Shown here: positions 8,917-28,717 of the stretch, piece by piece
How positions within the stretch are numbered: position 1 is the first letter of the stretch
Layout of the letters: the number at the start of each line of letters is the position of its first letter
Source of the DNA: Nocardia gamkensis NBRC 108242
Lineage (GTDB): Bacteria; Actinomycetota; Actinomycetes; Mycobacteriales; Mycobacteriaceae
Reading direction: 5' to 3'
DNA: 64,000 nucleotides
NCBI RefSeq assembly: GCF_001612985.1
Contig: NZ_BDBM01000019.1
Span: 62,001 to 126,000, forward strand
Translations under genes and position numbers: made by a program
The notes under the pieces: model-generated
What the model was told of the DNA's origin: nothing
Seen by the model: only the letters and a program-made list of their open reading frames with translations
Databases searched by the model: none

Positions 8917-8944
8917 CTTTCGACTTCGGCAAAGGAGCCCGCCC

Positions 8945-9904: not shown

Positions 9905-9937
9905 GTCCGCGCGCCGGGGATCGGAACGGTGAGGGTC

Positions 9938-12388
9938 ATGGCATCGAAGGAATCCGCAAGCAGCGCCGAACGCCCCGTCGAGCCGCCGTTGCGCGGATGC
10001 GTGGTGGTCGACCTCTCCTCCGGGATCGCCGGTGCGTATTGCACCAAACTACTGGCCGACGGCGGCGCGGAGGTGATCAAAGTCGAAGCGCCGGAGGGGG
10101 ATTTGCTCCGGCGCTGGTCGGCCTCGCACACCGAACTCGCCCCCGGCGCCGACGGCGCGCTGTTCGCTTTCCTGGCCTGTTCGAAGAAGAGTGTGGTGGC
10201 CGACCCAGGCGCGCCCGCCGACCTGGAACTCGTCGACGGTCTGCTGGCCTCGGCCGACATCGTGGTGTGGTCCCCGGGGTCGCGGCTCACCGAGCATCCC
10301 CGGTTCACCGCCGCCGCGCTGCGGCGCACGCACCGGCACCTGGTGGTCACCGCGATCACCCCCTTCGGTCTCGACGGGCCGTGGCACGATCGCCCGGCCA
10401 CCGAGTTCACCCTGCAGGCCTGGTCCGGCGGTATCGTCGGGCTCGGCCGGGGTGCGCCGGACCGCGCTCCGGTGCACGTGGGCGGCCGGATCGGTGAGTG
10501 GTTCGCCGGCGCCTACGCCTGCGCGGCCACCATGACCTCGCGGCTGCGCACGCTCGGAACCGGTGCCGGCGAACTGGTCGACCTGTCCGTGCTGGAAACC
10601 CAGATCCTCGGGCTCACCTATTTCCCGGTCTCGTTCTTCGACGCCCTCGGACGGCCGTTCCGCACGGAACGACGGCGCAGCGTGCCCGGGGTCGCGACCG
10701 CCTCCGACGGCTTGGTGGCGGTGGGCTGCGGCACCGCGCAGCAGTGGTTCGACCTGTGCGCGATGGTCGGGCATCCGGAGTGGATCGAGGAAGACCCCAA
10801 CCCCGCGATCACCCAGCGGGCCAACGAGAAAGCGCCGGAGATCTTCGCCTGGATGGCCGAGCAGCCCGCCGAGGTGATCCGCGACCTGGCGACGGCCTTC
10901 CGCATTCCCAACGGTCCCGTGGTCAACGGGGCCGACGCGCCCACCATGGATCATCATGTGGCGCGCAAGTTCTTCACGGTCAATCCCCGGGACGGCTTCG
11001 TCCAGCCCGGCCCGCCGTACCGCACCCGGCCCACGCTGCTGCGCGACCCGCAACCCGCTCCCCGGCTCGGTGAGCACACCGAGGAGTACCGAGCCCGGCG
11101 CCGCGAGCGCGCGAGCACGGCCCGCGACGGCGTGCCGGATCCGTTGCCGTTCCGCGAACTTCGCGTCCTGGATCTCACGACGTTCTGGGCAGGACCGTCG
11201 TGCACCCACTTCCTCGCCATGCTCGGCGCGGAGGTCATCCATGTGGAGTCGGCCGGGCGACCCGACGGCACCCGCCTCATCGCGGGTGTGCCGCCGACCG
11301 AAGAGCAATGGTGGGAGAAGTCCCCGATCTTCTCCGGGCTCAACACCGGCAAGAAGAGCCTCACGCTGGACTTCCGTTCCGAGCGAGGGCGGGATCTGCT
11401 GAAGCGGCTGGCCGCCACGTGCGATGTGATCGTCGAGAATTACACGCCGCGCGTCCTGGAACAGATCGGCCTGGACTACCCGGCCGTGCGGGAACGGCGG
11501 CCGGACACGATCATGGTCCGGATGCCGGGATTCGGCCTCGACGGTCCCTGGCGTGACAATCCCGCCTTCGCGTACGTCATCGAGGACACGTCCGGCTTGA
11601 CCTGGCTGACCGGTTACCCGGACCAGAACCCCGTGGAGCCCTACTCCATCGGTGATCCCAATGCGGGCGTGCACGCGCTCAACGCCCTGCTGCTCGCCTT
11701 GGAACACCGGCGGCGCACCGGTCAGGGAGTGCTGGTGGAGGCCGCTATGGTCGAGGCCGCGCTCAACGTGGCCGCCGAGCAAGTGATCGAATACTCGGCC
11801 TACGGCGCGCTGCTGGAACGCGACGGCAACCGCGGCCCCTGCGCGGCGCCACAGAATCTCTATCGAGCGGCGGGAGTGGACGAATTCGGCCGGGAGGATT
11901 GCTGGGTGGCGATCGCGGTCGCCACCGACGCGCAGTGGCGGCGATTGCGCGAAGCGCTCGGCACCCCGTTCTGGGCCTTGGATCCCGAACTCTCCTCCGC
12001 ACCGGGGCGCCGCCGCAGGCACGACCTGATCGACGAGCGGCTCGCCGAATGGTGCGCGCAGCGCGACAGCGACGAGATCGTCCGCGTCCTCTGGAACGCC
12101 GGTGTCCCGGTCGCGAAGGTCATGCAGCCGCATCGGCAGACCGAACTGCCACAGCTGCGGTTCCGTGACTTCTTCGAGGCCGTCGCCCACCCCGTCGCCC
12201 GGACGGCCGGACACAGCACGGTGCCGTTCCGGTCCTCGGCCGGTCCGCGGCGCTACCACCGGACGCACGCGCCCCTGCTCGGCGAGCACAACACCGAACT
12301 GCTCACCGCCCTCGGCGTGAGCGAGACGGAGATCCGCGCGCTGGAGGCCGACGGCGTCATCGGAGGCCTTCCCGCCGTCGCGCGGTGA
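9938..12388 (+). CDS. CoA-transferase, CaiB/BaiF (class III) family, two fused domains
   Basis: 816 residues from the ATG at 9938; a GTG at 9929 is also possible. Two class III CoA-transferase units are fused. The first (about residues 15-370) starts LRGCVVVDLSSGIAGAYCTK and contains GAEVIKVEAPEGD. The second (about 390-800) starts FRELRVLDLTTFWAGPSCTH, with GAEVIHVESAGRPDG and NTGKKSLTLDFRSERGRDLL. Most class III enzymes are single-domain polypeptides of about 400 residues, so this gene encodes both halves of a pseudo-dimer. The expected role is moving CoA onto a carboxylic acid intermediate before beta-oxidation. It is the last gene of the plus-strand unit beginning at 5335. Confidence 0.9.
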   Translation: MASKESASSAERPVEPPLRGCVVVDLSSGIAGAYCTKLLADGGAEVIKVEAPEGDLLRRWSASHTELAPGADGALFAFLACSKKSVVADPGAPADLELVDGLLASADIVVWSPGSRLTEHPRFTAAALRRTHRHLVVTAITPFGLDGPWHDRPATEFTLQAWSGGIVGLGRGAPDRAPVHVGGRIGEWFAGAYACAATMTSRLRTLGTGAGELVDLSVLETQILGLTYFPVSFFDALGRPFRTERRRSVPGVATASDGLVAVGCGTAQQWFDLCAMVGHPEWIEEDPNPAITQRANEKAPEIFAWMAEQPAEVIRDLATAFRIPNGPVVNGADAPTMDHHVARKFFTVNPRDGFVQPGPPYRTRPTLLRDPQPAPRLGEHTEEYRARRRERASTARDGVPDPLPFRELRVLDLTTFWAGPSCTHFLAMLGAEVIHVESAGRPDGTRLIAGVPPTEEQWWEKSPIFSGLNTGKKSLTLDFRSERGRDLLKRLAATCDVIVENYTPRVLEQIGLDYPAVRERRPDTIMVRMPGFGLDGPWRDNPAFAYVIEDTSGLTWLTGYPDQNPVEPYSIGDPNAGVHALNALLLALEHRRRTGQGVLVEAAMVEAALNVAAEQVIEYSAYGALLERDGNRGPCAAPQNLYRAAGVDEFGREDCWVAIAVATDAQWRRLREALGTPFWALDPELSSAPGRRRRHDLIDERLAEWCAQRDSDEIVRVLWNAGVPVAKVMQPHRQTELPQLRFRDFFEAVAHPVARTAGHSTVPFRSSAGPRRYHRTHAPLLGEHNTELLTALGVSETEIRALEADGVIGGLPAVAR

Positions 12389-12732: not shown

Positions 12733-13935
12733 TCAGGAGGTGAACGCGGGCAACGTTTCCCAGCCGCGGACGGTCGAGGTGGGCGACAGCTTCGCGTTCG
12801 CCAGGTCCACCTCCCACTCGGGGAACCGCGCGAGGATCTCCTCGAGCGCGATCCGTCCCTCCAGGCGAGCCAGCGCCGATCCGAGGCAGTAGTGCGTGCC
12901 GACGCTGAACGAGAGATGCTGGCGGGTGTCGCGGTGGATGTCGAAGACATCGCCGTCCGGCGGGAATTGCCGGTGGTCCCGGTTGGCCGCGCCGATGAGC
13001 ATCATCATGGCGCTGCCCTCCGGCACGGTCCGGCCGTGCACCTCGACATCGCGGGTCACATACCGCGCCACATGCGGCGCGGGTGGTTCGAAGCGCAGCA
13101 GCTCTTCGATGGCGTTCGGAATCAACCGCGGGTTCGCCACGAGCTCGCGGCGCTGGTCCGGATGCTCCGCGAGAACCTTGCCCGCCCAGCCGATCAGCCG
13201 GGTCGTGGTCTCGTTGCCCGCACCGGAGACCACGTTCACGTACGTGAGCAACTCCTCGCGGCGCAGCTTGCGCACGGCGCCGGTCTCGTCCTCGAACTCG
13301 ACGTCGAGCAGCTCGGTCATGATGTCGTCGGAGGGATGCTCGGCCCGCCAGTCGATGTAGGCGGCGAAGATGTCGCCGCTGGCCATGCCCTCGGAGGCGG
13401 CCTTCATCGGCTTGCCCTCCTCGGTCCGCATCTGCTCGTTCGCGAAGTCGCGGATGGCCTCCTGATCCTCCTCCGGGATGCCGAGCAGCATGCCGATGGT
13501 GCGCATCGGCATCTGCGCGCCGATGTCGGCGATGAAGTCCAGCCGTCCGGTACCGACGTGCGGATCGAGACTGCGCGCGCAGAACTCACGGATCTTGTCC
13601 TCCAGCGCGCGGATCTTGCGCGGGGTGAACATGCGCGAGAGCAGGCTGCGGTGGATGTCGTGGATCGGCGGATCCTCGAAGATCAGCACGCCGGAGGGAA
13701 TCTCGATGTTCGCTTTGATCAGTTCGATGATCGCACCGCGCGCGGAGCTGTAGGTGTCCTTGTCCAGCAGCGCCGCGTTGACATCCGCGTGGCGACTGAC
13801 CGCGTAGAAGTCGTGCTTCTCGTTGTAGTACAGCGGCATGTCCTCGCGGAGCCGTTTGAACATCGGATAGGGATCGGCATTGAGATCGACGTCGTACGGA
13901 TCGTAGTAGACGTCGCTGGCCGCGCTTGTAGTCAC
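12733..13935 (-). CDS. Cytochrome P450
   Basis: 400-residue soluble bacterial P450. Haem-binding segment FSVGTHYCLGSALAR carries the proximal Cys (about residue 350). The I-helix oxygen-activation motif is GAGNETTT and the K-helix ExxR is EELLR. Start ATG at 13935 gives the common N-terminus YDPYDVDLNADPYPMFKRLR. It is the last gene of the minus-strand catabolic run, separated by 87 bp from the previous P450. That gap holds an ATTCTC operator half-site (13960-13974). It should hydroxylate a hydrophobic substrate with electrons from the ferredoxin and reductase at 15309-16719. Confidence 0.95.
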   Translation of the reverse strand: MTTSAASDVYYDPYDVDLNADPYPMFKRLREDMPLYYNEKHDFYAVSRHADVNAALLDKDTYSSARGAIIELIKANIEIPSGVLIFEDPPIHDIHRSLLSRMFTPRKIRALEDKIREFCARSLDPHVGTGRLDFIADIGAQMPMRTIGMLLGIPEEDQEAIRDFANEQMRTEEGKPMKAASEGMASGDIFAAYIDWRAEHPSDDIMTELLDVEFEDETGAVRKLRREELLTYVNVVSGAGNETTTRLIGWAGKVLAEHPDQRRELVANPRLIPNAIEELLRFEPPAPHVARYVTRDVEVHGRTVPEGSAMMMLIGAANRDHRQFPPDGDVFDIHRDTRQHLSFSVGTHYCLGSALARLEGRIALEEILARFPEWEVDLANAKLSPTSTVRGWETLPAFTS

Positions 13936-14022
13936 AGTGGTTCGCCTCTTCTCTTTTTTGGAGATAACATTCTCAGTGGCCCGTCAGGAAATCTTGCGGC
14001 CGAGCGCATTCGGCTCGACGCC

Positions 14023-15261
14023 CTACCAGCTCACCGGCAGCTCGTACAACCCGTAGGCGAGCCGGTCGTGCTTGAACTGGACTTCCTCGAACGGAATCGC
14101 CAAGCGCAGTGTGGGAACGCGCCGGACCAGCGTCCGGAAGACGATCTGCAGTTCGGCCCGGGCGAGCTGCTGCCCGACGCACTGGTGCGGGCCGAAGCCG
14201 AACCCCAGGTGCTGACCGGCGGCCCTGCGCAGATCCAGCCGATCCGGCTGCTCCCATGCCTTTTCGTCCCAGTTGGCCGGTGCGAGGTCGAAGATCAGGC
14301 CGTCTCCGGCCCGGACGGTCTCCCCCGCGATCTCGATGTCCCCGATCGCGACGCGCCGCTGTCCGTTCTGGATGATGCTGAGGTACCGCAACAGCTCCTC
14401 GACCGCGCTGACGACGATCTTCGGATCGTCGGTATCGCGCAGCAGGGCGAACTGATCGAGGTTGCGCATCAGGGCCAGGGCTCCGAGCGAGATCATGTTG
14501 GCGCTCGTCTCGTGGCCCGCGATCAGCAGGCCGGTCCCCAGCTGGGCCGCCTCCTTCATATCGATCTCCCCGGCGCGCACCCGCTCCGCGATATCGGAAA
14601 CCACATCCTCGGCGGGGCTTTCCAGCTTCTTCTTCACCAGATCGACCAGATACCGCGCCAGACCCGCGCGTCCCTCGGCGGCCTGCTCCTTGGTCGCGTA
14701 CCGGTCGACGTTGACGGTGGCGTGCTTCTGGAAGAACTCGTGGTCCTCGTAGGGCACGCCGAGCATCTCGCTGATCATCAGCGTCGGCACCGGCAGCGCC
14801 AGCGCCTCGACCAGGTCGGCGGGCTGCGGCCCGGCCAGCAGCCGGTCTATGTGCTCGTCGGTGATCTGCTGGATGACCGGCCGCAGCGCTTCCACCCGCT
14901 TGAAGGTGAACGGCTTGGTGAGCATCCGCCGGTACCGGCTGTGCTCCTCGCCGTCTGTGGTGAACAGCGACTTCGGTCTGCTGTCCACGATCGCCGCCAT
15001 GCCCTCGTTCCAGTGCGGGAAGCCGGGCCGGTGATCGTCAACGCTGACCCTCGGATCCGACATCAGGGTCTTGAATTCGGCATATCCGGTGACCAGCCAG
15101 GGGGTGCTGCCGTCCCAGATGCGGACGCGGTTGAGCGGCTTGCCCCGGCCCAGCCGCAACGCCTCGGGCGGCGGGGCGAACGGGCATCCGGCCGACCTGG
15201 GCATGGGATAGTCGGGAACCTCCGTCGCGGCGGTGGTCGTATCGGTCGATGCTTCGGACAC
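14023..15261 (-). CDS. Cytochrome P450
   Basis: 412 residues from a GTG at 15261 preceded by AGGAG; upstream in-frame ATGs would add an unrelated Arg-rich tail. Haem segment FGFGPHQCVGQQLARAEL, I-helix AGHETSANM, ExxR EELLR. The N-terminal PMPRSAGCPFAPPPEA and the WDGSTPWLVTGYAEFKTLMSD block are typical of actinobacterial class I P450s. The ferredoxin gene lies 47 bp upstream, followed by its reductase, so this is a complete three-component P450 system. Confidence 0.95.
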   Translation of the reverse strand: MSEASTDTTTAATEVPDYPMPRSAGCPFAPPPEALRLGRGKPLNRVRIWDGSTPWLVTGYAEFKTLMSDPRVSVDDHRPGFPHWNEGMAAIVDSRPKSLFTTDGEEHSRYRRMLTKPFTFKRVEALRPVIQQITDEHIDRLLAGPQPADLVEALALPVPTLMISEMLGVPYEDHEFFQKHATVNVDRYATKEQAAEGRAGLARYLVDLVKKKLESPAEDVVSDIAERVRAGEIDMKEAAQLGTGLLIAGHETSANMISLGALALMRNLDQFALLRDTDDPKIVVSAVEELLRYLSIIQNGQRRVAIGDIEIAGETVRAGDGLIFDLAPANWDEKAWEQPDRLDLRRAAGQHLGFGFGPHQCVGQQLARAELQIVFRTLVRRVPTLRLAIPFEEVQFKHDRLAYGLYELPVSW

Positions 15262-15308
15262 TGTTCGCTCCTGGGTGATCGGGTGCGGAAGAACCGCGGG
15301 ATGCAGGT

Positions 15309-15503
15309 TCATTCCTCGATGTGGATGGCCATGGCCGGGCAGACCGCCGCGGCCTGGCGCACGTCCTCGGCGAGTTCCTCCGGCGGGTTCTCGTCGAGCA
15401 GGACGACGATGCCGTCCTCGTCTCGCTGATCGAACACGTCGGCCGCGTGCATGACGCAATGCCCGGCCGCGACGCATTTGACTTGATCGACAGTCACTTT
15501 CAT
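15309..15503 (-). CDS. Ferredoxin, [3Fe-4S] P450 type
   Basis: 64 residues. Three cluster cysteines are visible: Cys10 and Cys16 in VKCVAAGHCVMHA, and Cys55 in AAAVCPAMAIHIEE. The C-x5-C ... CP spacing, with no cysteine at the usual fourth position, indicates a [3Fe-4S] ferredoxin of the kind that feeds actinobacterial P450s. It lies between its reductase (15517) and a P450 (15261). Confidence 0.93.
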   Translation of the reverse strand: MKVTVDQVKCVAAGHCVMHAADVFDQRDEDGIVVLLDENPPEELAEDVRQAAAVCPAMAIHIEE

Positions 15504-15516
15504 CGGGACCTTCTTC

Positions 15517-16719
15517 CTACGGGAAGTGAGCGGGGGTCGGGGGCGAGGCGAGCACGGCGTGCGCGTCGGCCACCTGCTGCCGCTGGATCCTGGCCTGCTT
15601 GGGCATGTTCCAGCCCAGCACCGCGGTGACGCCATCGCCTCGCTCGAAGCGCGCGACGAATCGGCCGTCGTCCGGGTCGCCGTCGACGATCGTGGCCCGC
15701 GCGTCGGCCGTGATCGTCCCGTACACCTGGATCTTGGTGCCGAATTGATCACTCCAGAAATACGGAATCGGCTGATACGCCCGCTCGGCGCCGAGGATGT
15801 TCGCCGCAACCACCCCTGCCTGTTCGGTCGCGTTCGTGCGGTTCTCCAACCGGAGGGTCGTCCGCAGCGCGGGATGGTGCCACCGGGCGACGTCGCCGAC
15901 GGCGTAAACGCCGTCGGCGGCGCGGCAGCACGCATCGCAGACCACACCGTCGGCGAGGGAAAGCCCGCTACCGACCAGCCATTCGGTGGCGGGCACCGCC
16001 CCGATCGCGACCACCACCAGGTCCGCGGGCAACGTCTCGGACGTCTCCAGGACGACGCCGGTGACTTCGCCGTCGCGGTCGGTGAGACCGGAGACGCCGA
16101 CGCCGAGCCGCAGGTGGACTCCGTTGCCGGTGTGCAGATCGGCGAGCAGGTCCCCCGCCGGAACGCCCAGCTGCGCCGCCATCGGGGCGCGCTGCGGACC
16201 CGTCATCGTGACGTCGTGGCCGGACTGCCGTGCGGTGGCGGCGATTTCCGCGCCGAGCACACCCTCGCCCACCACGACCACGCGCGCACGGGCCGCCAGG
16301 TCGTCGCGCAGCGTGAGCGCGTCGTCGAGCGTGCGCAGTACGTGGACGCCGTGTAGTCCGGGCGGCGCGGGCAGCCTTCGCGGTCGCGCTCCGGTGGCGA
16401 TCACGATGTTCTCGGCCGTCACCGCGCCGGTCGCCGTGTGCACGGTGCGGGTGGCGGCGTCCAGGGCGAGGGCAGGCGACCCGAGGACGACGTCGATGTC
16501 GAGTTCGGCCAGCAGGCGCGGCGCACGCAGGAGAGTGCGCTCGGGCCGCCACGTGCCGGAGAGGATCTGCTTGGACAGCGGCGGGCGATCGTAGGGCAGG
16601 TGCGGTTCGGCGCCCAGCAGTGTGATGCGGTCGCGGTACCCGCCCCGCCGCAGCGCCTCCACGGTGGCCAGGCCCGCGGCCGAGGCTCCGACGACGAGGA
16701 CTCCGGTGCGGCGGGTCAT
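15517..16719 (-). CDS. NAD(P)H:ferredoxin reductase, FAD-dependent
   Basis: 400 residues, pyridine nucleotide-disulphide reductase superfamily. FAD-binding Rossmann motif VLVVGASAAGLATVEALR at the N-terminus, NAD(P)-binding motif VVVGEGVLGAEIA near residue 150, and the FAD motif GVYAVGDVARW near residue 270. It should pass electrons to the adjacent [3Fe-4S] ferredoxin for P450 catalysis. Its ATG overlaps the SDR stop at 16716 by 4 bp. Confidence 0.95.
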   Translation of the reverse strand: MTRRTGVLVVGASAAGLATVEALRRGGYRDRITLLGAEPHLPYDRPPLSKQILSGTWRPERTLLRAPRLLAELDIDVVLGSPALALDAATRTVHTATGAVTAENIVIATGARPRRLPAPPGLHGVHVLRTLDDALTLRDDLAARARVVVVGEGVLGAEIAATARQSGHDVTMTGPQRAPMAAQLGVPAGDLLADLHTGNGVHLRLGVGVSGLTDRDGEVTGVVLETSETLPADLVVVAIGAVPATEWLVGSGLSLADGVVCDACCRAADGVYAVGDVARWHHPALRTTLRLENRTNATEQAGVVAANILGAERAYQPIPYFWSDQFGTKIQVYGTITADARATIVDGDPDDGRFVARFERGDGVTAVLGWNMPKQARIQRQQVADAHAVLASPPTPAHFP

Positions 16720-17555
16720 CGCGGGCCCGCCGCGACGGACTGCTCCGCCGGCTTCTTGCGTGGTTTCAGGGGTTTACCCGCGACCGTGCCGCCGTCCACC
16801 GGCAACATCGTGCCGGTGACGTACCCCGATCGGTCGCTGCCGAAATACACGGCCACCTCCGCGACATCCTCGGGCGTGCCCTCGCGCGGCAGCGGTCGGT
16901 CCGCCGCCATGGACTCGCGCATCGCCTTGGTGAACCGCTCGCCGTGCTCGGCCGACATCGTCGCCGCCGAGGAGGCGAGCAACGAAGTCGGTATGTTGCC
17001 GGGCGCGATGCAGTTGACGCGAATGCCGAACCGCGCCAGCTCGATCGCCGCCGATTTGGTGAAGTGCACGACCGCCGCCTTGGACGCCCGGTAGCTCTGC
17101 ACTCCCCCGCCCGCCTGGATGCCGCCGACCGAGGACACGTTGACGATCGAGCCGCCGCCGTTGTCGGCCATGTGCCGGGCCGCGAAGCGGGTGCCCGCCA
17201 TGACGCCGAGCAGGTTCACGCCGAGCACCCGGTGGAAGTCGGCGAGATCGTCGTGCAGCAGGCTCCTGTGCATGGTGCCGGAGATGCCCGCGTTGTTGCA
17301 CATCACATCCAGGCCGCCGAAGGTCCGCACCGCGCGGTCCACGAGCCGCTCGACCTGCGCCGGATCGGCGACGTCGATCTGCTCGAAGATCGCCGCCGCG
17401 CCGTAGCCGGCCACCGACGCCGCGCCGCGTTCGGAATCGACGTCGGCGACCACGACGCGGGCGCCTTCGGCGACGAACCGCGCCACGATCGCGCTGCCGA
17501 TACCCGACGCGCCGCCGGTGACTACGGCGACCTTGCCCGCCAATTCGTCGGTCAT
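16716..17555 (-). CDS. Short-chain dehydrogenase/reductase
   Basis: 279 residues, classical SDR. Cofactor motif VVTGGASGIG (residues 12-21), NNAG near residue 90, and a catalytic segment with Ser in VNVSSVGG and Tyr/Lys in SYRASKAAV. VVVADVDSERG, with Asp at the end of the second strand, suggests NAD preference. It probably oxidises a ring or side-chain hydroxyl. A C-terminal tail rich in Lys/Arg (KPLKPRKKPAEQSV) is unusual. Both ends overlap neighbours by ATGA. Confidence 0.93.
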   Translation of the reverse strand: MTDELAGKVAVVTGGASGIGSAIVARFVAEGARVVVADVDSERGAASVAGYGAAAIFEQIDVADPAQVERLVDRAVRTFGGLDVMCNNAGISGTMHRSLLHDDLADFHRVLGVNLLGVMAGTRFAARHMADNGGGSIVNVSSVGGIQAGGGVQSYRASKAAVVHFTKSAAIELARFGIRVNCIAPGNIPTSLLASSAATMSAEHGERFTKAMRESMAADRPLPREGTPEDVAEVAVYFGSDRSGYVTGTMLPVDGGTVAGKPLKPRKKPAEQSVAAGPR

Positions 17556-18391
17556 GCCATATTTCCTTTCGTCAGCTCACCGAGGAATGCCGGCAGCAGG
17601 TCGTTGACGACCTCGGGCTGCTCGATCTGGGGACAGTGCCCCGCATTCGCCACGGCGACGGAACGTCCGTCCGAGATGCGCGCCGCGATGTCCGCCGACC
17701 AGCCCGCGGGCAGCAACTTGTCGCAGGCGCCTTCGACGAGGAGGACGGGCACGCGGATGCGCTCGTAGGCCCGCTCACTCGACGGGGCGGGCGGCGCATC
17801 CGCCCCCGGACGGCGAAACCGCGCGGCCGCCAACGCCTCCCACGCACCGGGGGCGATGCTCGATTCGTATCGTCTGCGCACATAATCCTCGTCGGCCGGG
17901 TACGACTCCGCGTGGAACAGCGCCCGGACGATGGCTCGCATCCCGGACAGCGTGGCGTCGTAGTCGTAGAGCGCTCGCATGTGCTCGTTGCGCTGGATCT
18001 CCCCGCCCCCGCAGATCGCCACCAGGCTGCGCATCGGGAGCCTCGGCGCCGTCGAGGTCGCGTCGACGAGCAGGTTGATCGCGCCCATGGAATTGCCGAC
18101 GAAGTGCGCCGACTCGACGCCGAGGGTCGCGAGGAAGCGTGCGATGTGCCGGATCCGCAGACCGCGGCCGTCGTTGAAGTCGACCACTTTCGCCGACCCG
18201 CCGAAGCCGAGCATGTCCGGGGCCAGCACCCGGTAGCGCGGGGCGAGGGCGTCGATGGTGTGCTCCCAGCCCAGTTCCGCGCAGGCGCCGAACTCGCCGC
18301 CGTGCAGCAGCACCACCGGTTCGCCCGCTCCCGCTTCCAGGTAGGCGGTTGTGCAGCCGTCCACCACGACGGTTCTGCGCTGCGCGATCAC
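17552..18391 (-). CDS. Alpha/beta-fold hydrolase
   Basis: 279 residues from a GTG at 18391 that overlaps the upstream stop (GTGA). Oxyanion-side motif VVLLHGGEFGA, nucleophile elbow FVGNSMGAIN (Ser near residue 107), C-terminal acid region LLVEGACDKLLPAG and catalytic His in NAGHCPQIEQP. It resembles meta-cleavage product hydrolases, which split C-C bonds in ring-fission products, but esterase or thioesterase activity is possible. A second such hydrolase sits at 27818-28717. Confidence 0.9.
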   Translation of the reverse strand: MIAQRRTVVVDGCTTAYLEAGAGEPVVLLHGGEFGACAELGWEHTIDALAPRYRVLAPDMLGFGGSAKVVDFNDGRGLRIRHIARFLATLGVESAHFVGNSMGAINLLVDATSTAPRLPMRSLVAICGGGEIQRNEHMRALYDYDATLSGMRAIVRALFHAESYPADEDYVRRRYESSIAPGAWEALAAARFRRPGADAPPAPSSERAYERIRVPVLLVEGACDKLLPAGWSADIAARISDGRSVAVANAGHCPQIEQPEVVNDLLPAFLGELTKGNMA

Positions 18392-19566
18392 GAGACGCTT
18401 CCTATCCGGTCGATGTGCGGCGGTGCGAGAGTCACCGCGCCTCGGTGGCTGTCCGGCAACGGAATTCGTTCGACGATGCGCACCTGCTCCGGTTCGACCG
18501 CGGTGTCGACCGCATCGCCGAGCAACCGGACTTCGCGCAACCCGAGTTCCTCGAGAATGTCGAAGGCCGATCGGACGTCGCTGTGGTCGGCGGAATGCGC
18601 CTGTGCACAGGGCGTTTGGGCATCCGGTCGGCAAGCGCGCAAGGTCTCCCGCACAGCGGTGCTGCGTGCGCGAATGTAGACGAGCACGCCGCTGCCGGAC
18701 CGCGCGATGCGATCCAGTGCGTGATCGAGTTCGGCCCGGCATCCGCAGTGCCGGGAGCCGAAGACGTCACCGGCGAGGCATTCGAAGTGCAGGCATACCA
18801 GCGGCGCGAGGTCCGCCAACGGATCGCCGTGCACGAACGCGACGTGTTCGCGATCCAGTCCGTCGGTGAATCCGATCGCACGGAACTCCCCCATCGGCAG
18901 CGGAATCCGAGCGACGCCGCGTCGGCGCACCCGGCACAGCTCGCGGCGGCGGTAGACGACCAGGTCATCGATCGACACCACCGGCAACCCGTGTTCGCGA
19001 CCGAGGTCGAGCAGTTCGGTCCGCCCGGCCTGTTCGCCGTCGGCGCCGCAGACCTCGCACAGCACCCCCACGGGCGCCATTCCCGCCAGCTCGACCAAGT
19101 CGACCGCGGCCTCCGGGGATGCGGGCACCGACAGCACACCATCGGCGGCGCAGCCGAGCGGGAAGACGTGTCCGGGCCGGGTGAACGTGCTCGGTGTGCT
19201 CGCCGGGTCGGCGAGCGCGCGAATCGTGTGGGCGCGGTGGGAGGCACGGACGCCGCCCGCCTCGGTTCCGGCCAGGCCCACCGACGCCCGGAACAGCTCG
19301 CGGCCCGGCCCGGTGGAGGTCGGATCGGCCGGCGGTATCCCGAGCACGTCCAGCGCCGCCGAGCGCATCGATACGTGGATGAGCCCGCATCCGATGATGG
19401 TCATGGCCTTGGCCGCTTCGGCCGTCATGCGTTGCGCCGCCATCACCAGATCGCCCCGGCACCCACCGTCCGCCTCGCCGAGGACAAGGATCATCCGCCC
19501 GTCCCGGAGGGCGGCCGTCGCCTCGGCCACCCTGGTCCGGGCCGCCTGCCGGGGCGGGGTCGTCAT
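18388..19566 (-). CDS. RibBA-like protein with both active sites eroded
   Basis: 392 residues. The N-terminal half aligns with DHBP synthase (RibB): LVMAAQRMTAEA, RPGHVFPL and VGVLCEV are retained. The catalytic DDEDRENEGD block is replaced by GEADGGCRGD, and the GGHTEA block by PASPEA, losing the His. The C-terminal half aligns with GTP cyclohydrolase II (RibA) and keeps the three zinc cysteines in FECLAGDVFGSRHCGC. The catalytic RGQEGRGIGL loop is replaced by IRARSTAVRETL. Riboflavin synthesis is therefore unlikely. The gene is intact and linked by overlaps to an FMN-reductase-like gene and a hydrolase. A new catalytic or ligand-binding role in the pathway is plausible but unknown. Confidence 0.85.
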   Translation of the reverse strand: MTTPPRQAARTRVAEATAALRDGRMILVLGEADGGCRGDLVMAAQRMTAEAAKAMTIIGCGLIHVSMRSAALDVLGIPPADPTSTGPGRELFRASVGLAGTEAGGVRASHRAHTIRALADPASTPSTFTRPGHVFPLGCAADGVLSVPASPEAAVDLVELAGMAPVGVLCEVCGADGEQAGRTELLDLGREHGLPVVSIDDLVVYRRRELCRVRRRGVARIPLPMGEFRAIGFTDGLDREHVAFVHGDPLADLAPLVCLHFECLAGDVFGSRHCGCRAELDHALDRIARSGSGVLVYIRARSTAVRETLRACRPDAQTPCAQAHSADHSDVRSAFDILEELGLREVRLLGDAVDTAVEPEQVRIVERIPLPDSHRGAVTLAPPHIDRIGSVS

Positions 19567-20177
19567 GCGCGGGCCCCGCCTGCCGGGGCGAAGGTCAGCA
19601 CCTGCGTGGCGAGCAGCTCGAGCTGAGCGCTGACCGTCTCGTCGGTCAGCCTGCCCTCGGCATCCCAGATCGGTTCCGCGGAATTGATCGCGACGCCGAG
19701 CGGAGTCGGCCACGCCCGCAACGCGTGACCGATCACCCGCAACTGTCCGAGCGTTCCCACGGCGGCCTGCCAGCCGTAGGCGCAGGTGATGCAGCCCCAC
19801 GGTTTGTTGTCCAGGTACACCGTCGCGTCCCCGCGCAGATCCTCGATGTAGTCGAGGGCGTTCTTCACCAGGCCGGAGACGCCGCCGTGGTAGCCGGGCG
19901 AGCCGATCACCACCGCGTCCGCGCCGCGCAGCGCCTCCACCAGTGCGGTCGCCCGCTCGGTGCGGACCGGGTCGTGCGGGTTGTACATCGGCAGGTTGAT
20001 CTCCTCGCCGCAGAACAGCGCGGTGCGCCCGCCGTGGCGTTCCACCGCCGCCAGGCAGTGCCGCAGCGCTTGCTCCGTCGACGAACCCGCCCGCAACGTG
20101 CCGCCGATGCCGACGACGAACGGCCGCCCGTCACCGGCCACCTCGGGGGCGGTCGCACTTCTCGCGCCTGCGGTCAT
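19563..20177 (-). CDS. NAD(P)H-dependent FMN reductase family flavoprotein
   Basis: 204 residues, ATG at 20177 preceded by GAGG. Flavodoxin-like fold: GIGGTLRAGSSTEQALRHCL binds FMN phosphate near the N-terminus, then LPMYNPHD, VIGSPGYHGGVSGLVKNALD and KPWGCITCAYGWQA. It could supply reduced FMN to the luciferase-type monooxygenase at 22089, or act as an NADPH-dependent azo/quinone reductase. It overlaps the RibBA-like start by ATGA. Confidence 0.9.
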   Translation of the reverse strand: MTAGARSATAPEVAGDGRPFVVGIGGTLRAGSSTEQALRHCLAAVERHGGRTALFCGEEINLPMYNPHDPVRTERATALVEALRGADAVVIGSPGYHGGVSGLVKNALDYIEDLRGDATVYLDNKPWGCITCAYGWQAAVGTLGQLRVIGHALRAWPTPLGVAINSAEPIWDAEGRLTDETVSAQLELLATQVLTFAPAGGARA

Positions 20178-20209: not shown

Positions 20210-21199
20210 CTACTTGATGGCGATCGGATTTATGGGGGATCCGACGGCGCCGATCACGCGCAACGGCGGTGCGATGAGCTGGAATTCGTAGACGCCGTCC
20301 GCGGCGCAGTCGGCCGCGAGCGCGGTGAGATCCCAGTACTCGCCGAGCATCAGTCCCATGTCCCGAAGGCAGAGCATGTGCAGCGGCAGGAAGGTGCCGT
20401 CCACTCCGGACACCGGGTCCTCGACCATGAGGTTGTCCGCGGCCACGGCCGCGATCTCCCGTTCGTGCAGCCAGGTTGCGCACCGCCAGTCCAGGCCCGA
20501 GTACGGTTCCGTGCCGTCGCCCGCCTCGAGGAAGCGAGCCCACCAGCCGGTGCGGATCAGCACGATGTCGCCGCGTCCGACTTCGACGCCCTGTGCCTCG
20601 GCGACCTCGTCCAGCTCGTCGGGGGTGATCGGGTCGCCCGCCGCGAGGAAGGTGTCGGCGCCGCGGTGGCGGACCAGATCCAGCAGCACGCCGCGGGTCG
20701 TGATGCCCTTGCCGTCGACCTTGTCGATCCCGCAGTGGTACGCGCCCAGACTGGTGACCGAGCTCGCCGGGAAACCGTTGTACAGGTGGTCGTCGTAGTA
20801 GACGTGCGACAGCGCATCCCACTGCGTCGCCGCCTGTAGCGGCATGATGATCAGATCGTCGTTGAAGCGGAACGGGTTGTCCTCGAAGAAGCCGCTGAGT
20901 TCGCGTCCGACGCTGTTGCGCAACCACTTCGGGCCGTACTCGGTCAAGGTTCGCGCGTCGCCGCCGTCCACCGTCATCACGTGCACCGGGTTGTGCCGGA
21001 ACTTGAACGCGCCCTGCGGTCCGGACGAGCCGAAGTCGACGCCGAGCGGGAACACCCGTCCGTGCCGTACCAGGCCCGCCGCCTGGGTGACCTTGTCCGG
21101 GGTGATGAAATTGAGCGTGCCGAGTTCGTCGGCGGCGCCCCATCGGCCCCAATTGCGCACACCGTCGGCGACACGCCGGAATTCCGTCAGATCGGCCAC
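20210..21199 (-). CDS. Cyclase family protein (kynurenine formamidase-like fold)
   Basis: 329 residues from a GTG at 21199 with AAAGGAG upstream. It belongs to the cyclase/formamidase superfamily, metal-dependent hydrolases that open cyclic or amide bonds. The segment QWDALSHVYYDDHLYNG carries the Asp and His expected at the metal site. DIVLIRTGWWARF is the conserved central strand, and LPLHMLCLRDMGLMLGEYWD the distal part. Length and motifs fit the longer subgroup found in aromatic-compound clusters. Probable role: hydrolysis of a lactone or amide intermediate. Confidence 0.87.
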   Translation of the reverse strand: MADLTEFRRVADGVRNWGRWGAADELGTLNFITPDKVTQAAGLVRHGRVFPLGVDFGSSGPQGAFKFRHNPVHVMTVDGGDARTLTEYGPKWLRNSVGRELSGFFEDNPFRFNDDLIIMPLQAATQWDALSHVYYDDHLYNGFPASSVTSLGAYHCGIDKVDGKGITTRGVLLDLVRHRGADTFLAAGDPITPDELDEVAEAQGVEVGRGDIVLIRTGWWARFLEAGDGTEPYSGLDWRCATWLHEREIAAVAADNLMVEDPVSGVDGTFLPLHMLCLRDMGLMLGEYWDLTALAADCAADGVYEFQLIAPPLRVIGAVGSPINPIAIK

Positions 21200-21239
21200 G
21201 CTGCTTCTCCTTTCACGCTGAGTGCCGGTATTCCGGCGG

Positions 21240-22061
21240 TCATGAGCCCGCGTCCACACCGGCGATCCGGGCGCCCACATTCCCGCCGTCGACCCAGAGC
21301 ACCTGGCCGGTGACGTAACTCGCCGCCCGGCTGTTGAGGAACAGCAAGGCGGCCGCTTGTTCGGCCGGTTCGCACACCCGGCCCAGCGGCTTGGGAATGG
21401 TGTCGAGATACTCCTGGCCGTAGGCCGCGCGCAGTTGCTCCAGGATGGGCGTCTGCGTCACTCCCGGACCCGTGCAATTGATCCGGATGCCGCGCGCCCC
21501 CAGGGCGACGGCGTTACGCATCGTGTAGTAGATGATCGCTTCCTTCGACAACCGATAACCGCCGTCGGCCACGGCGTCGGGATGGGCTTCGCACCAGGCG
21601 ATTCCGGCCTGCATGTCCGCGGTGTCCAGCAGGCCGCCGACCTGCTCGCGGTGCTCGAGATAGCCGGCCGCCGCGAGCGAGGACACGCTCGCGATCGTGG
21701 CTCCCGGCGCCATCGACCGCGTCAGCGCATCGGTGAACTGCCGCAGGCCGAGGAAATTGATCGTGACCACGCGGATGGGGTCGCCGATGCCCGAGGAGAC
21801 GCCCGCGACGTTGAACAGGGAGTCGACGCCGCCGCCTAGCGTGGCGACGGCGCGCTCGATCGACGCGGCGTCGGCCATGTCCACTCGATGGAATTCGTCG
21901 AGGTCACCGGCCGGCTCTGCCACGTCCAGACCGGTCACGCGGCCGCCGAGTGCCCTGACCTGACGGGCCACGCAGGCGCCGATCCCGGACGAGCATCCGG
22001 TCACGACGACCCGCTTGCCGTCGTAGCGCCACAGCTCATCTGCTCGTTCGACCTCGGGCAT
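21240..22061 (-). CDS. Short-chain dehydrogenase/reductase
   Basis: 273 residues. VVVTGCSSGIGACVARQ cofactor motif, LDVAEPAGD at the second strand, NVAGVSSGIG in place of NNAG, and catalytic SVSSLAAAGY ... GGYRLSKEAI. The insertion between Ser and Tyr (about 40 residues) resembles 3-alpha-hydroxysteroid dehydrogenase/carbonyl reductase type SDRs. The C-terminus YVTGQVLWVDGG is standard. Probably oxidises or reduces an alicyclic ketone/alcohol. Confidence 0.92.
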   Translation of the reverse strand: MPEVERADELWRYDGKRVVVTGCSSGIGACVARQVRALGGRVTGLDVAEPAGDLDEFHRVDMADAASIERAVATLGGGVDSLFNVAGVSSGIGDPIRVVTINFLGLRQFTDALTRSMAPGATIASVSSLAAAGYLEHREQVGGLLDTADMQAGIAWCEAHPDAVADGGYRLSKEAIIYYTMRNAVALGARGIRINCTGPGVTQTPILEQLRAAYGQEYLDTIPKPLGRVCEPAEQAAALLFLNSRAASYVTGQVLWVDGGNVGARIAGVDAGS

Positions 22062-23390: not shown

Positions 23391-25214
23391 TTACTTACTT
23401 CCTCCGATGGAATCGAATGTCGAGTTGTCGCGGGCGGTTTCGGTGTGGGCCGCCGTCGCGCTACCCGCCAGGTGCTCGACGGCGGCGTAGCCGAACGTCA
23501 TCGCGGGCCCGATCGTGGCGCCCGCGCCCGCGTAACTGCGGCCCATGACCGCCGCGGAGGTGTTGCCCACGGCGTAGAGACCCGGGATGACGGTGCCGTC
23601 GGACCGCAGCACCCGGGCGTGCTCGTCGGTGCGCAGGCCGCCCGAGGTGCCGAGATCGCCGAGGATGATCCGGAACGCGTAGTACGGGGGCTTGCCCAGC
23701 GGATACAGGTTGGGGTTGGGCAGGGTGGGGTCGCCGTAGTAGTTGTCGTAGACGCTGTCGCCGCGCTGGAAGTCGTCGTCGTGGCCGTTGCGGGCGAGTT
23801 CGTCGAATCGCTTCGCGGTGGCGCGCAGGCGATCCTCGGGCACGCCGATCTTCGCCGCGAGTTCCGTCCAGGAGTTCGCCGCCACGACGACGCCCGAGTC
23901 CAGCCAGGCCTGCGGGATCTTCCGGCCGGTCGGCACCGGTGCGAACGGGATCTTCGGCAACGGCAGGTGCCCGGCGACGACGTAGCGGCGCCAGGAGCGC
24001 ACGTCGGTGATCAGCCAGCTCGGGATGTGCGTGGTACCCGACCGCTGGCCCTCGATCATCGCGTGGCCGAAATCCATGTACGGCGCGGCCTCGTTGATGT
24101 ACCGCTCGCCCGCGCCGTTGACGATGAACTGGGCAGGCATCATGCGCTCGTTGAGCATGAATTGCAGCCGGCCGTCCGGCCATTGGATGGCCGGGAACCA
24201 CCACGCCTCGTCCATCAGGTCGGTGGCCGCGCCGACCTGCTGCCCGGCGCGGATGCCGTCGCCCATGGCCTGCGGATTGCCGAAACTCCAGTCCTGGTCC
24301 ACGACCGGCTGGTGCTCCTTGCGCCAGGCCATGTCGTGATCGAAGCCGCCGGTGGCCAGGATCACGCCGCGTTCGGCCCGGATCCGCGACGGCTGCCCGT
24401 CGCGCTCGACCACCGCGCCGACCACGCCGCCCTCGGCTCCGGTGATCAGGGAGGTCATCGGCGCGTTCAGCCAGAGCGGGATGTCGCGCTCCCGCAGTGC
24501 GAGCCGCAGCCGGGCCACCAGGGATTGGCCGATGGCGGCGATCCGGTCACCGAACACCCTGGCGCGGAACATCCGCCAGACCAGTTTCACCAGCACGGCT
24601 TTGCCGCGCCAGGACTGGCGCACCTGGTAGAACAGCCGCAGATCCTTGGGCCCCAGCCAGATTCCCTTCGGGGCCAAGGCCAGCGGACGCAGCAGGTTCT
24701 GCTCTTCGTCGCCGAGCATGCGCAGATCGATCGGCGGCACGTTGATGGTGCTGCCCTGCGCGGAGCCGCCGGGCAGTTCCGGGTAGTAGTCGGCGTAGCC
24801 GGGTTTCCACACGAACCGCAGCCACGGACTGCGCTGTTCGAGGAATTCCATCATCCGCGGCGCCTTCGCGACATAGGCCCGCAGGCGAGCGTCGCCGACC
24901 AGGCCTTCGGTGATCGCGCGCAGGTACTCCACCACCCCGTCGGGATCGGGTGTGTAGCCGTCGCGCTTCTGCGCCGGGGCGCCGGGCACCCAGATGCCGC
25001 CGCCCGACAGCGCGGTCGATCCGCCGTAGTAGGCAGCCTTCTCGACCACCAGGACGGACAGTCCGGACGCCTCGGCCGCCAGCGCGGCGGTCAGCCCGCC
25101 GCCGCCGGAGCCGACGATCAGGACATCGACGGCATGGTCGAACTCCGTTGATTCTCCGGTGTTTCCGGACTTCGCGGTGCCGGACACGGGTGCGTCGATC
25201 GGTTCGGATGTCAC
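23391..25214 (-). CDS. FAD-dependent dehydrogenase, 3-ketosteroid-delta1-dehydrogenase-like
   Basis: 607 residues from a GTG at 25214 with AGGAGG at ideal spacing. FAD-binding DVLIVGSGGGGLTAALAAEA, then GGSTALSGGGIWVPG, ILATGGFDHD, and the C-terminal PPYYAFRIILGDLGTSGGLR (catalytic Tyr/Gly region in ketosteroid dehydrogenases) and GLYAVGNTSAAVMGRSYAGA. It belongs to the FAD_binding_2 family that introduces double bonds next to ring ketones. A second copy, 28754-30397, is only distantly similar, so they probably act on different rings or intermediates. Substrate not determinable. Confidence 0.9.
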   Translation of the reverse strand: MTSEPIDAPVSGTAKSGNTGESTEFDHAVDVLIVGSGGGGLTAALAAEASGLSVLVVEKAAYYGGSTALSGGGIWVPGAPAQKRDGYTPDPDGVVEYLRAITEGLVGDARLRAYVAKAPRMMEFLEQRSPWLRFVWKPGYADYYPELPGGSAQGSTINVPPIDLRMLGDEEQNLLRPLALAPKGIWLGPKDLRLFYQVRQSWRGKAVLVKLVWRMFRARVFGDRIAAIGQSLVARLRLALRERDIPLWLNAPMTSLITGAEGGVVGAVVERDGQPSRIRAERGVILATGGFDHDMAWRKEHQPVVDQDWSFGNPQAMGDGIRAGQQVGAATDLMDEAWWFPAIQWPDGRLQFMLNERMMPAQFIVNGAGERYINEAAPYMDFGHAMIEGQRSGTTHIPSWLITDVRSWRRYVVAGHLPLPKIPFAPVPTGRKIPQAWLDSGVVVAANSWTELAAKIGVPEDRLRATAKRFDELARNGHDDDFQRGDSVYDNYYGDPTLPNPNLYPLGKPPYYAFRIILGDLGTSGGLRTDEHARVLRSDGTVIPGLYAVGNTSAAVMGRSYAGAGATIGPAMTFGYAAVEHLAGSATAAHTETARDNSTFDSIGGSK

Positions 25215-25216
25215 GC

Positions 25217-26188
25217 TCACCTCCTGGCGGTCGAATCGTTGTCCCGGCCCGCGTCCGCGAGGGCGGTTCGCACGGCGAACCCGGCGATCAGCGCGGGAGC
25301 GGATCGGTAGTAGCGCACCGTCGTCCGGTACGGCCCCTGGCTTGCCAGCGCCGCGAAGGCGGCGACCCAGGTGCGCACCTCGTGCGCGGAGTTGCCCGCG
25401 GCCTCGGTGATCGCCGCGTTGGCCCAGTCGTCGAACTCGTCGAGCCGCCCGTGGTCGAGGATCTCGAGGAAGCGCCCGTCCCACTCGGGGTTGAGCGGCC
25501 GGAGCCCGCCGCGCCCGGCGGCGAATTCGCGGGCGGCTTCGATCACCCTCTCCTGCCGGGTATTTCGCTGCTGCGGGGTCATCTGCCCGCCGTGCACGAT
25601 CCGCTCCAGCGCGGGTCCGGTGGCCGTGGCCAGCGCGGGCACCGGTGGGTCGTGGGACAGCCCGCCCGAACCCAGCACCAGCACCCGCCTGCCGAGTGTC
25701 GCCAGATACGCGCCAACGGCCGCGCCCAGCGCTCTGGCACGATGCAGCGGACCGAGCGGCACGGCCACCGAGTTGACGAAGATCGGGACGACCGGTCGCG
25801 CGGTCGCGGCGCCCAGCAGCCGCTGCAGCGGCTGGACCGTCCCGTGATCGACCTCCATCGTCATCGAGACGGCCACGTCGACACCGGCCGCGAGCACCGC
25901 CTCGGCCAGCTCGGCCGCCAGGTCGGCGGGGACGTCCAGCGGCCCGGCGTGCGTGCCGTAGTCGCCGACTCCGGTGGCCGCCGTGCCGATGCAGAACGGC
26001 GGCATGAGCTTGTAGAAGAACCCGTTGTAGTGGTCGGGCGCGAACACCACGACCAGTTCCGGGTCGAAGTCGCGGACGAACCGCGACGCCTCGTCGAGGG
26101 CCGACTCGATGTCCTCGAGCAATTCTCGTTCCGGCCCGGGGAGGTCAAGAAGAGGGCTGTGCGAGACGCAGCACACGGCCAGCGGCAT
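25217..26188 (-). CDS. MhpB-like class III extradiol ring-cleavage dioxygenase
   Basis: 323 residues, homologous to 2,3-dihydroxyphenylpropionate 1,2-dioxygenase (MhpB) and related class III Fe(II) enzymes. Iron/catalytic His candidates are in [22 protein letters not shown] and VDHGTVQPL. It would open a catechol ring produced by the hydroxylase at 26145. Its first 44 bases overlap the 3' end of that gene, an unusually long overlap for this run. It is followed, two bases after its stop, by the ketosteroid-dehydrogenase-like flavoprotein. Presence of MhpA-, B- and C-like proteins without MhpD/E/F here suggests the ring-fission product is processed differently. Confidence 0.9.
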
Positions 26189-27815
26189 CGTTTCCTCCTC
26201 GGAGCAGGTCGAGCGTGTCGAGCAGGGCCGCGCTCAGTTCCGGCGCCTGTTGCGCGATGGACGCCCCCGCCACGCAGCGGTCCGGCCGCAGGAACAGCAC
26301 CGAGTCGAGCTGGCCGTCGAACCAGCGTTTCAGCGCGCCGGTTCGGTCGCCCACGACGACGACGTCGGGGTCGTCGTGACCGGTCCAGCGCAATTGGGCC
26401 GACGGGCGGGCCTCGAAGAACCGCGCTCCCAGGGCTTTCCATCGTTCGAACGCCGTCGCTCCGAGCACATCGCGGGGCCGGTTGTTCCAGCACAGCACGG
26501 CGAACCACGGTCCGAGCACCTCGTCGAGCAGGACGTCGGTGCGGTCTCTGGTGTCCACCCGGGGCTGCACGAACAGGGTGCCGACCGAGGACTTCGGCGA
26601 ACGGGACCAGTCGTGCACCACCGCCCCGCGCTCGTAGCGTGGCATCGGCTTGAACCGCATGCCCAGCACATAGCGTTTCACCGGGGGAATCGCGGCCGCG
26701 GCGCGAACAAGCGCGTCGCGGACCGCCGCCACTTTGCGATCGGTCGGCGAGATCACCCGGCCGACCATCGTCGAAAGATCGATCATCGCCCTGGCGTGCT
26801 TGCGGCGCTCCAGGTCGTAGCTGTCGAGCAGGGCGTCGCCCGCCTGCCCCCGGACGACAGCGGCGAGTTTCCAGCCGAGGTTGGCCGCGTCCCTGATCCC
26901 GCTGTTGTAACCCTGCCCCTGCCACACCGGCATCAGGTGCGCGGCGTCGCCTGCCAGCAGCAGGCGGCCGCGCCGGAAGGCGCCCGCGATCCGGGAATGG
27001 TGCGTGTAGACCCGGCGCCGGATGACCTCGAGCCGCTCGGGATGCGGGACGAACGGCGCGACCATCCGCGCCACGAACGCCGGATCCTCGGCCAGTTCGT
27101 CGGGTTCGTCGTCGTGGATCATGAACTCGAAGCGCCGGATGCCGTGCGCGATCGACACCGACACGTTCGGCCGCGCCGGATCGGCGGCGACCTCGATGTT
27201 GGGATGCCCCAGCGGATCCGAGGCGAGATCGACCACCAGCCAGCGCGTCGGCGAGGTGGTGCCCTCGAACGAGACCCCCATCTGCCGCCGGGTGGCGCTG
27301 CGCCCGCCGTCGCAGCCCACCACGTATCGCGCGGTCACGGTGGAGGGCCCGCTGTCGGTGGCGAGTTCGACCGTCACCCGCCCGCCGGCCTCCGCGCACG
27401 AGACCATGGCCGTCCCCCAGGCCACCTCGACGTGCGGGTAACGGGCCAGCCCGGCGAGCAGCTCGGCGTCGACCAGCGGCTGGACGAACCCGTTGCGTTT
27501 CGGCCAGCCGAATTGCTCGTCGGTGGGGGCGATCTCGGCGAGCAGCCTGCGCCGGGCGTCGACGAACCGCATGATCTGGTTCGGGGTGGTGTGCGGCAGA
27601 ACGCGGTCGGCCAACCCGATCGCCTGGAACGTCCGCAGCGATTCGTCGTCCAGGCCGACGCCGCGCGGGTAGTCGATGAGGCTCGGGCGTTCCTCGACCA
27701 CCCGGGCGCGCACACCGTACATCCCGAGCATGTTGGCCAGCGTCAAGCCGACCGGGCCCGCACCCACGACGAGCACGTCGACGTCGGGGGCGGTGGAGAT
27801 CCTCCGCTCGGCCAT
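26145..27815 (-). CDS. MhpA-like FAD-dependent aromatic hydroxylase (bifunctional 3-(3-hydroxyphenyl)propionate hydroxylase family)
   Basis: 556 residues, class A flavoprotein monooxygenase. [20 protein letters not shown] binds [19 protein letters not shown] is the DG motif; [20 protein letters not shown] is the GD motif. The C-terminal thioredoxin-like domain (about residues 400-540) is typical of this family. The length matches MhpA. It hydroxylates a phenol ortho to an existing hydroxyl to give a catechol for the overlapping MhpB-like dioxygenase. The presence of this pair means an aromatic ring arises during degradation. Confidence 0.92.
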
Positions 27816-27817
27816 GG

Positions 27818-28717
27818 TCAGCCGCCCAGCAAAAAGTCGAGGTGCAGGGCGTTGAAGGTCTCGGCGTCCTCGTACTGCGGCCAGTGCCCGCAACCCGGCA
27901 GGACTTCGAAGCGCGCACCGGGGATCATCGACGCGATCCGCCTGCCCTCACCGACGTCTGCGGTGGGGTCGTCACTGGTCCACAGCACGAGGGTCGGCGC
28001 GGTGATCCGGCCGTAGTCACCGGGCCCCAGCAGGTTTCGCCGCCGGATCTCCGGGTCCTGCAAGGCCATGATGTCGCGCATGGCGGCGGCGAAGCCCGGT
28101 TGCCGGTAGATGCGCTGCCTGCTGGCGACCACGTCGTCGTAGTCCTTCGATTTGTCGGCCATCAGCCACTTGATCCTGGCCTGCACCGTCTCCCAGGTGG
28201 GGTCGGTGGCCGCCGCCATCGACAGCGTGACGATGCGGCGCATGACCTCCGGGTCGGCCTGGGACCCGCCCGCGGTGTTGAGCACCAAGCGGTCGACACG
28301 CTCGGGATGATCGATCGCCACGCGGGCGGCCACCCAGCCGCCCAGCGACTCGCCGCTGACGCAGGCGCGGCGCGCGCCCACCGCGTCGAGGAATCCGATG
28401 ACGTGCTCGACGTAGTGCGAGATCTCCAGCGGATGCCCGGGTTTGCCGGTGTAGCCGTGCCCCAGCATGTCGATCGACCACGTCGAGAAGTGCACGGCGT
28501 GGGACTCCAGATTGCGGACGTAGGCTTCGGCGTGCCCCCCGGACCCGTGCAGCAGGACGAGAGCCGGGCAGGTCGGATCGCCCGCGTGTAGGTAGCGGGT
28601 CCGGACGCCGCCGACGTCCAGGTATCCCTGGGTGAAGGGGACGCCTTGGAGATCGCTCCAGATGCTCTCGTATTCCGGCAACTCGTTATCCTCCGTAGAA
28701 CCAGGCCTGTTCGCCAT
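27818..28717 (-). CDS. Alpha/beta hydrolase, meta-cleavage product hydrolase type (MhpC-like)
   Basis: 299 residues. Motifs: [14 protein letters not shown] (oxyanion), [16 protein letters not shown] (nucleophile Ser near residue 126), [14 protein letters not shown] (acid) and [14 protein letters not shown] (catalytic His). The family includes MhpC, BphD and HsaD, which hydrolyse vinylogous diketones formed by extradiol cleavage. Location directly before the MhpA- and MhpB-like genes supports that role. It ends two bases before the hydroxylase start codon. Confidence 0.92.

Follow-up and report, generated by a model that had tools for sequence, protein, structure and literature searches.

RibBA proteins join a DHBP synthase (DHBPS, RibB) half to a GTP cyclohydrolase II (RibA) half, and the metal ligands of the former, namely Glu38 and His153, as well as the roles of the residues in its RENEGD and HTEA blocks, are known from Escherichia coli RibB. 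The active sites of DHBPS are formed across a dimer and, as delimited in the Vibrio cholerae enzyme, five loops line the ribulose-5-phosphate (Ru5P) site (PMC5228156). Among relatives of these enzymes, the Arabidopsis paralogues RIBA2 and RIBA3 each lost one half only and kept the other activity (PMC3509567), and LuxH, encoded in bacterial lux operons, is a DHBPS homologue (PMC1793995). The window analysed here, i.e., a whole stretch of 64,000 nucleotides from Nocardia gamkensis NBRC 108242, encodes a RibBA homologue in which both catalytic centres are altered, with the following features:

18388..19566, minus strand: RibBA-like gene of a putative pseudoenzyme, 392 aa, ATG start, no internal stop
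19450..19467, minus strand: former RENEGD loop, now GGCRGD, aa 34-39
19288..19332, minus strand: former DHBPS loop 2, family-specific P-A-D-P-x-x-T-G-P-x-R-x-x-F-R, aa 79-93
19105..19128, minus strand: former GHTEA block, now VPASPEAA, aa 147-154, metal His gone
18739..18780, minus strand: zinc-site cysteines C263-x10-C274-x-C276, kept
18640..18672, minus strand: former RGQEGRGIGL cyclohydrolase loop, now RARSTAVRETL, aa 299-309

The DHBPS-like half spans approximately aa 11-208 and the GTP-cyclohydrolase-II-like half aa 213-372, PF00926 (161 bits) and PF00925 (100.5 bits) each being matched over almost their full length. In GGCRGD, the metal Glu, the Arg and the second Glu of RENEGD are gone and the last Asp remains; the RRPGHTEA of canonical RibBA has become SVPASPEA, and the RGHEGRGIGL loop is missing (the stretch reads RARSTAVRE). 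The first-pass annotation of this DNA had described an intact gene whose DHBP-synthase half lacks the RENEGD acidic block and the GHTEA His, and whose cyclohydrolase half lacks its loop and keeps C-x10-C-x-C; alignment to canonical RibBA and the single uninterrupted reading frame bear this out on every count, and the DARDY and TNNPAK blocks, which were not on its list, are gone too. Two more RibBA proteins with intact motifs are encoded in the same genome, namely L001, beside a lumazine-synthase-like gene, and L002, to which the window protein is approximately 36-38% identical. Both pass the curated NCBI cut-offs for RibA, RibB and RibBA, whereas the window protein fails all three, i.e., (i) the RibBA equivalog model NF006803 (269.9 bits for a cut-off of 569; L001 745.6, L002 617.3), (ii) the RibB model TIGR00506 (137 bits for 177.45; controls 246.5 and 221.5), and (iii) the RibA model TIGR00505 (71.6 bits for 205.85; controls 251.3 and 238.3). 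The intact second RibBA (L161, C6) is found in a cluster with HsaA, HsaB-like, HsaC-like and KshA-like genes, which suggests that an FMN-dependent monooxygenase there has a flavin supply of its own.

Among the 148 Nocardia genomes searched, 16 carry the gene, including the window's own, and the 15 relatives are 46-97% identical to the window protein, the closest being the 97% twin L034; close relatives named when genome contigs were scanned include N. exalbida (the 97% twin), N. abscessus, N. transvalensis and others. Across 201 genomes of the family, with 31 genera sampled, strong matches (E 1e-60 or better) occur only in Nocardia. In all 16 members the frame is open, Glu38 and His153, the DHBPS metal ligands, are absent along with the residues of RENEGD/HTEA, the RGxEGRGIGL loop, the catalytic Arg (R128-type) and NNPxK are lost, and the zinc triad C-x10-C-x-C is kept together with E171; D39 and H133 are mostly retained and neither is invariant. 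Since the replacements are common to the 15 relatives, including the 97% twin and other, independently assembled genomes, a sequencing error is ruled out. These relatives also share the operon slot, so that the check proposed at the outset, on common replacements and common neighbours, came out in the affirmative. The protein of one member (G057; L048:6358-6427 and 8926-10290) carries a long insertion where the HTEA block used to be. Nei-Gojobori dN/dS of the RibBA-like gene ranged from 0.14 to 0.32 over nine genome pairs, i.e., purifying selection, by which a pseudogene is ruled out. The ratio is usually the highest or near-highest among the operon genes and far below 1, the RibBA-like gene usually being the fastest-evolving of the operon (values for P450a in window/L035 and for g27818 in L043/L045 and window/L040 were ignored, the matches being wrong or incomplete where a contig or stretch ends).

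The operon is a ring-degrading gene cluster, in which the neighbours of the RibBA-like gene are, in the window:

12733..16719, minus strand: two P450s, ferredoxin and ferredoxin reductase, same operon
16716..17555, minus strand: SDR oxidoreductase
17552..18391, minus strand: alpha/beta hydrolase, downstream of the RibBA-like gene, GTGA overlap
19563..20165, minus strand: FMN reductase (PF03358), immediately upstream of the RibBA-like gene, 4-nt ATGA overlap
20210..21205, minus strand: PF04199 'putative cyclase' family hydrolase
21240..22061, minus strand: SDR, coniferyl-alcohol dehydrogenase subfamily NF009092
22089..23390, minus strand: luciferase-like monooxygenase (PF00296)
23391..25250, minus strand: 3-ketosteroid-dehydrogenase-like FAD enzyme
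25217-26188, minus strand: LigB/MhpB-like extradiol dioxygenase
26145-27893, minus strand: MhpA-like FAD monooxygenase
27818..28717, minus strand: C-C-hydrolase-like alpha/beta hydrolase

The two overlaps reported earlier, each of 4 nt (ATGA on the FMN reductase side, GTGA on the hydrolase side), were confirmed. The order common to the members is hydrolase, MhpA-like, LigB/MhpB-like, KstD-like, luciferase-like monooxygenase, SDR, cyclase family, FMN reductase, RibBA-like, hydrolase, SDR, ferredoxin reductase and P450s, with small gaps. The RibBA-like gene lies between the FMN reductase and the alpha/beta hydrolase in the 15 relatives, and it overlaps or closely follows the FMN reductase gene in most of the 16 members; 15 of the 16 have the reductase immediately before it, and the last is split over contigs with both genes at contig ends. 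G057 retains this pair in an operon whose luciferase-like gene is lost. Between the window and the more distant relatives, most neighbours are 70-91% identical and the RibBA-like protein 46-64%. A C-terminal (I/M)G-x-x-S was rejected as a conserved peptide motif, its codons being the Shine-Dalgarno sequence of the next gene plus the stop-start overlap (window 18388-18411); in L040, L045 and L046, the hydrolase match starts 174-465 nt further on, yet (I/M)G-x-x-S persists.

The luciferase-like gene is present in 31 of the 148 Nocardia genomes, 15 with and 16 without the RibBA-like gene. The same operon without it is found in other Nocardia and in the genera g11 and g29, the latter being probably Mycobacterium because it holds mel2-type loci. 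Mycobacterium-type genomes and half of the operon-bearing Nocardia genomes have the operon but not the gene, so that the RibBA-like protein is an optional accessory of the operon. In the operon tree, the gene is absent from one Nocardia branch nested among carriers and, once G075, whose operon is split over two contigs, is counted as a carrier, the pattern would fit a single gain, at the root of the Nocardia operons, and a single loss. No RibBA-like remnant was seen in the gaps read of operons without the gene. In two such operons, L103 (10564-10816) and L104 (8426-8735), a frame starts at an ATG overlapping the FMN-reductase stop and runs into the hydrolase, which thereby gains a low-complexity extension at its N terminus; this may be a scar left by a lost RibBA-like gene. 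In L109, L111 and L113 (g29), approximately 800 nt separate the cyclase and hydrolase genes and an extra alpha/beta-hydrolase-like frame (MRFVFVHGG...) takes the place of the FMN reductase.

The fold is kept over both domains according to the predicted structure, as sought by comparison with solved RibA and RibB. The AlphaFold model of the window protein (mean pLDDT 80, pTM 0.64) has low confidence in the zinc loop and at aa 303-322, and its best solved match is Mycobacterium tuberculosis (Mtb) RibA2 (4i14_A; VIA Z 30.8, 315 residues, rmsd 5.2, the domain arrangement being uncertain). Taken alone, the DHBPS half of the model superposes at rmsd 1.5 on 4ffj and at 1.5-2.7 Å on most solved DHBPS, and the second half on E. 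coli GTP cyclohydrolase II (2bz0; Z 18.9, rmsd 2.3). Matches to carbamoyltransferases (Z ~8, DHBPS half) and to alpha/beta hydrolases (Z ~7, second half) were disregarded as weak. In the family alignment, about one third of the replaced DHBPS columns that are invariant in canonical enzymes are now invariant for another residue. With the Vibrio cholerae loop ranges moved to the window protein by a fixed offset, family-specific invariants occupy 11 of the 52 positions of the five Ru5P-site loops and 10 of the 142 others (Fisher p 0.008, in a comparison made after viewing the alignment and treating neighbouring columns as independent, which they are not). The clearest remodelled loop is loop 2, PADP-x-x-TGP-x-R-x-x-FR, and the family-invariant residues comprise R37, D81, T85, R89, R93, C139, C173 and E178, plus the retained E171; loop 4, which in DHBPS is the lid supplied by the second monomer, varies among the members and is deleted in part. 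The clustering of invariants in loops of the former Ru5P pocket suggests, at the level of the alignment, remodelling rather than decay.

A search for all RibBA relatives in 32 genomes returned second RibBA copies in g29 genomes, of which five (L154-L158) lie in loci of mel2-like order, namely luciferase-like, ferredoxin/FAD/NAD oxidoreductase, epoxide-hydrolase-like, flavin reductase, RibA1 and SDR, with a TetR-like regulator nearby and, in several, YrbE/Mce genes; by this gene order, and not by the sequence of Rv1940 itself, they were taken as Rv1940 orthologues. A flavin reductase sits beside RibA1 in three of the five loci (L154, L157, L158) and none was called next to it in L155 and L156. 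In L154-L158, both active sites are lost and the zinc cysteines are kept, and the two RibA1 proteins scanned failed the same RibA, RibB and RibBA cut-offs. Contrary to the annotation 'putative GTP cyclohydrolase II', RibA1 of this type thus appears, by its motifs, to lack the catalytic residues of both RibA and RibB. In the tree, the Nocardia family and mel2 RibA1 form separate clades with 100/100 support, and a joint clade is not rejected (p-AU 0.23). Another copy, L153, beside a luciferase-like gene, lacks the RENEGD residues and keeps HTEA, and L160 (G003) is an intact extra RibBA copy just after a flavin reductase. RibBA copies, some active-looking and some apparently dead, would therefore seem, in this small sample, to recur near flavin-dependent monooxygenase systems. 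L159 (G401:C28, ~330975-331880) is an extremely divergent RibBA relative that keeps C-x10-C-x-C, with most other active-site residues eroded and an unsure placement on a long branch.

That the window gene encodes a doubly degenerate, retained RibBA-derived protein is well supported. The first-pass annotation had gone further, holding that a protein preserved without its known activities must have another role; purifying selection, family-wide loss of key residues and failure at the cut-offs speak for the claim, and its 'must' is too strong, loss of activity and another role both being probable readings of sequence data. The flavin- or substrate-binding partner and the new lyase that it put forward are candidate roles. 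We favour, at about even confidence, a RibBA-derived pseudoenzyme serving as an accessory of an FMN-reductase/monooxygenase system. A RibBA copy would have been recruited to a place next to the FMN reductase and the luciferase-like monooxygenase, where additional flavin synthesis is of advantage, and would then have lost both activities and been kept as a non-catalytic accessory of the flavin system, e.g., a partner that binds the reductase or, in its remodelled DHBPS pocket, handles an anionic or flavin-like ligand. The zinc site most likely just holds the second domain together. Such a role is suggested by catalytic residues lost in 16 of 16 members, by 15 relatives in the same slot, by the retained fold and a dN/dS of 0.14-0.32, by paralogues (L001 and L002) passing the cut-offs that the window protein fails, by the FMN reductase upstream in 15 of 16 and the pair surviving in G057 without the luciferase-like gene, by the parallel of mel2-type RibA1 and the intact extra RibBA copies also beside or near flavin reductases, and by the enrichment of family-specific invariants in the former pocket loops. 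Against it, Mycobacterium-type genomes and 16 of the 31 luciferase-like-bearing Nocardia have kept the operon and do not have the gene, and two of five mel2-type loci gave no flavin reductase call beside RibA1.

Invariant loop residues would suit a new enzyme equally well, in which the rebuilt DHBPS pocket acts on a ring-cleavage intermediate, e.g., as a lyase or isomerase. The location in a pathway operon and the concentration of invariants in the former Ru5P loops, while the remainder diverges fast, fit this rather unlikely alternative, but many taxa have the operon without the gene, so that no obligatory step common to all can depend on the protein, loop 4 is variable and partly deleted, and the remaining catalytic-type residues, D39 and H133, are not invariant. 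The two intact RibBA copies of the genome raise the prospect, less probable again, of a regulatory subunit that would form mixed dimers with one of them and tune riboflavin synthesis when the operon is on; DHBPS active sites span a dimer (PMC5228156) and the fold is retained, but fast divergence and only ~36-38% identity to the intact copies speak against such pairing. Slow decay of a once-useful flavin-supply RibBA, weakly constrained and on its way out, would explain why this is usually the operon's fastest-evolving gene and why one nested Nocardia branch lacks it, and is improbable given a dN/dS well under 1 in nine of nine pairs, an open frame in 16 of 16 and new invariant residues. Least credible by far is residual canonical activity of one half: the zinc triad, E171 and mostly H133 and D39 remain, but the DHBPS metal Glu and His, the R128-type Arg, the cyclohydrolase loop and NNP.K are gone in every member, and the protein misses the cut-offs of the curated RibA, RibB and RibBA models.

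Annotated by fold, the Nocardia protein and mel2 RibA1 would both be labelled riboflavin enzymes, which their motifs make very unlikely. The conservation of a doubly dead RibBA next to an FMN reductase points to an accessory role, so far unrecognised, in flavin-dependent monooxygenase systems. It also offers a reading of the failure of mycobacterial RibA1 to stand in for RibA2, and makes the Nocardia operon a system outside mycobacteria where that reading is testable. Beyond the first-pass annotation, the gene proved optional in its operon, mel2-type loci hold a parallel doubly degenerate RibBA, and the new invariants cluster in the old DHBPS pocket loops. Tentatively, and with considerable doubt, Actinobacteria may have converted RibBA, possibly repeatedly, for use in flavin-reductase/luciferase-like monooxygenase operons, as a component with either no catalytic activity or a different one; the Nocardia family and mel2 RibA1 would then be one functional class sharing a role in delivering or protecting reduced flavin.

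Compared with known systems, the window protein shares domain order, fold and zinc triad with canonical RibBA (Mtb RibA2 4i14; L001, L002), in which the residues of both reactions are all intact, whereas here they are lost. Mel2 RibA1 (Rv1940/MelJ type) is likewise RibBA-derived with both active sites erased and zinc cysteines kept, in an operon that also has a luciferase-like monooxygenase, a hydrolase, an SDR and, in three of five loci, a flavin reductase (PF01613 there, PF03358 in Nocardia); unlike the Nocardia protein, it has a long branch, keeps the DR pair, loses D42 and is shortened in its C-terminal third. Arabidopsis RIBA2 and RIBA3 are, like the Nocardia protein, RibBA paralogues short of catalytic residues. 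In proteobacterial RibBX, the RibA-like half is degenerate. RibBX is, like the Nocardia protein, a RibB fused to a RibA-like domain and is a DHBP synthase by the title of PDB 6mnz, whereas the DHBPS half is degenerate too in Nocardia. LuxH is taken to be an active RibB-type enzyme, which would set it apart from the Nocardia protein. Both are DHBPS homologues beside a luciferase-type monooxygenase (PMC1793995).
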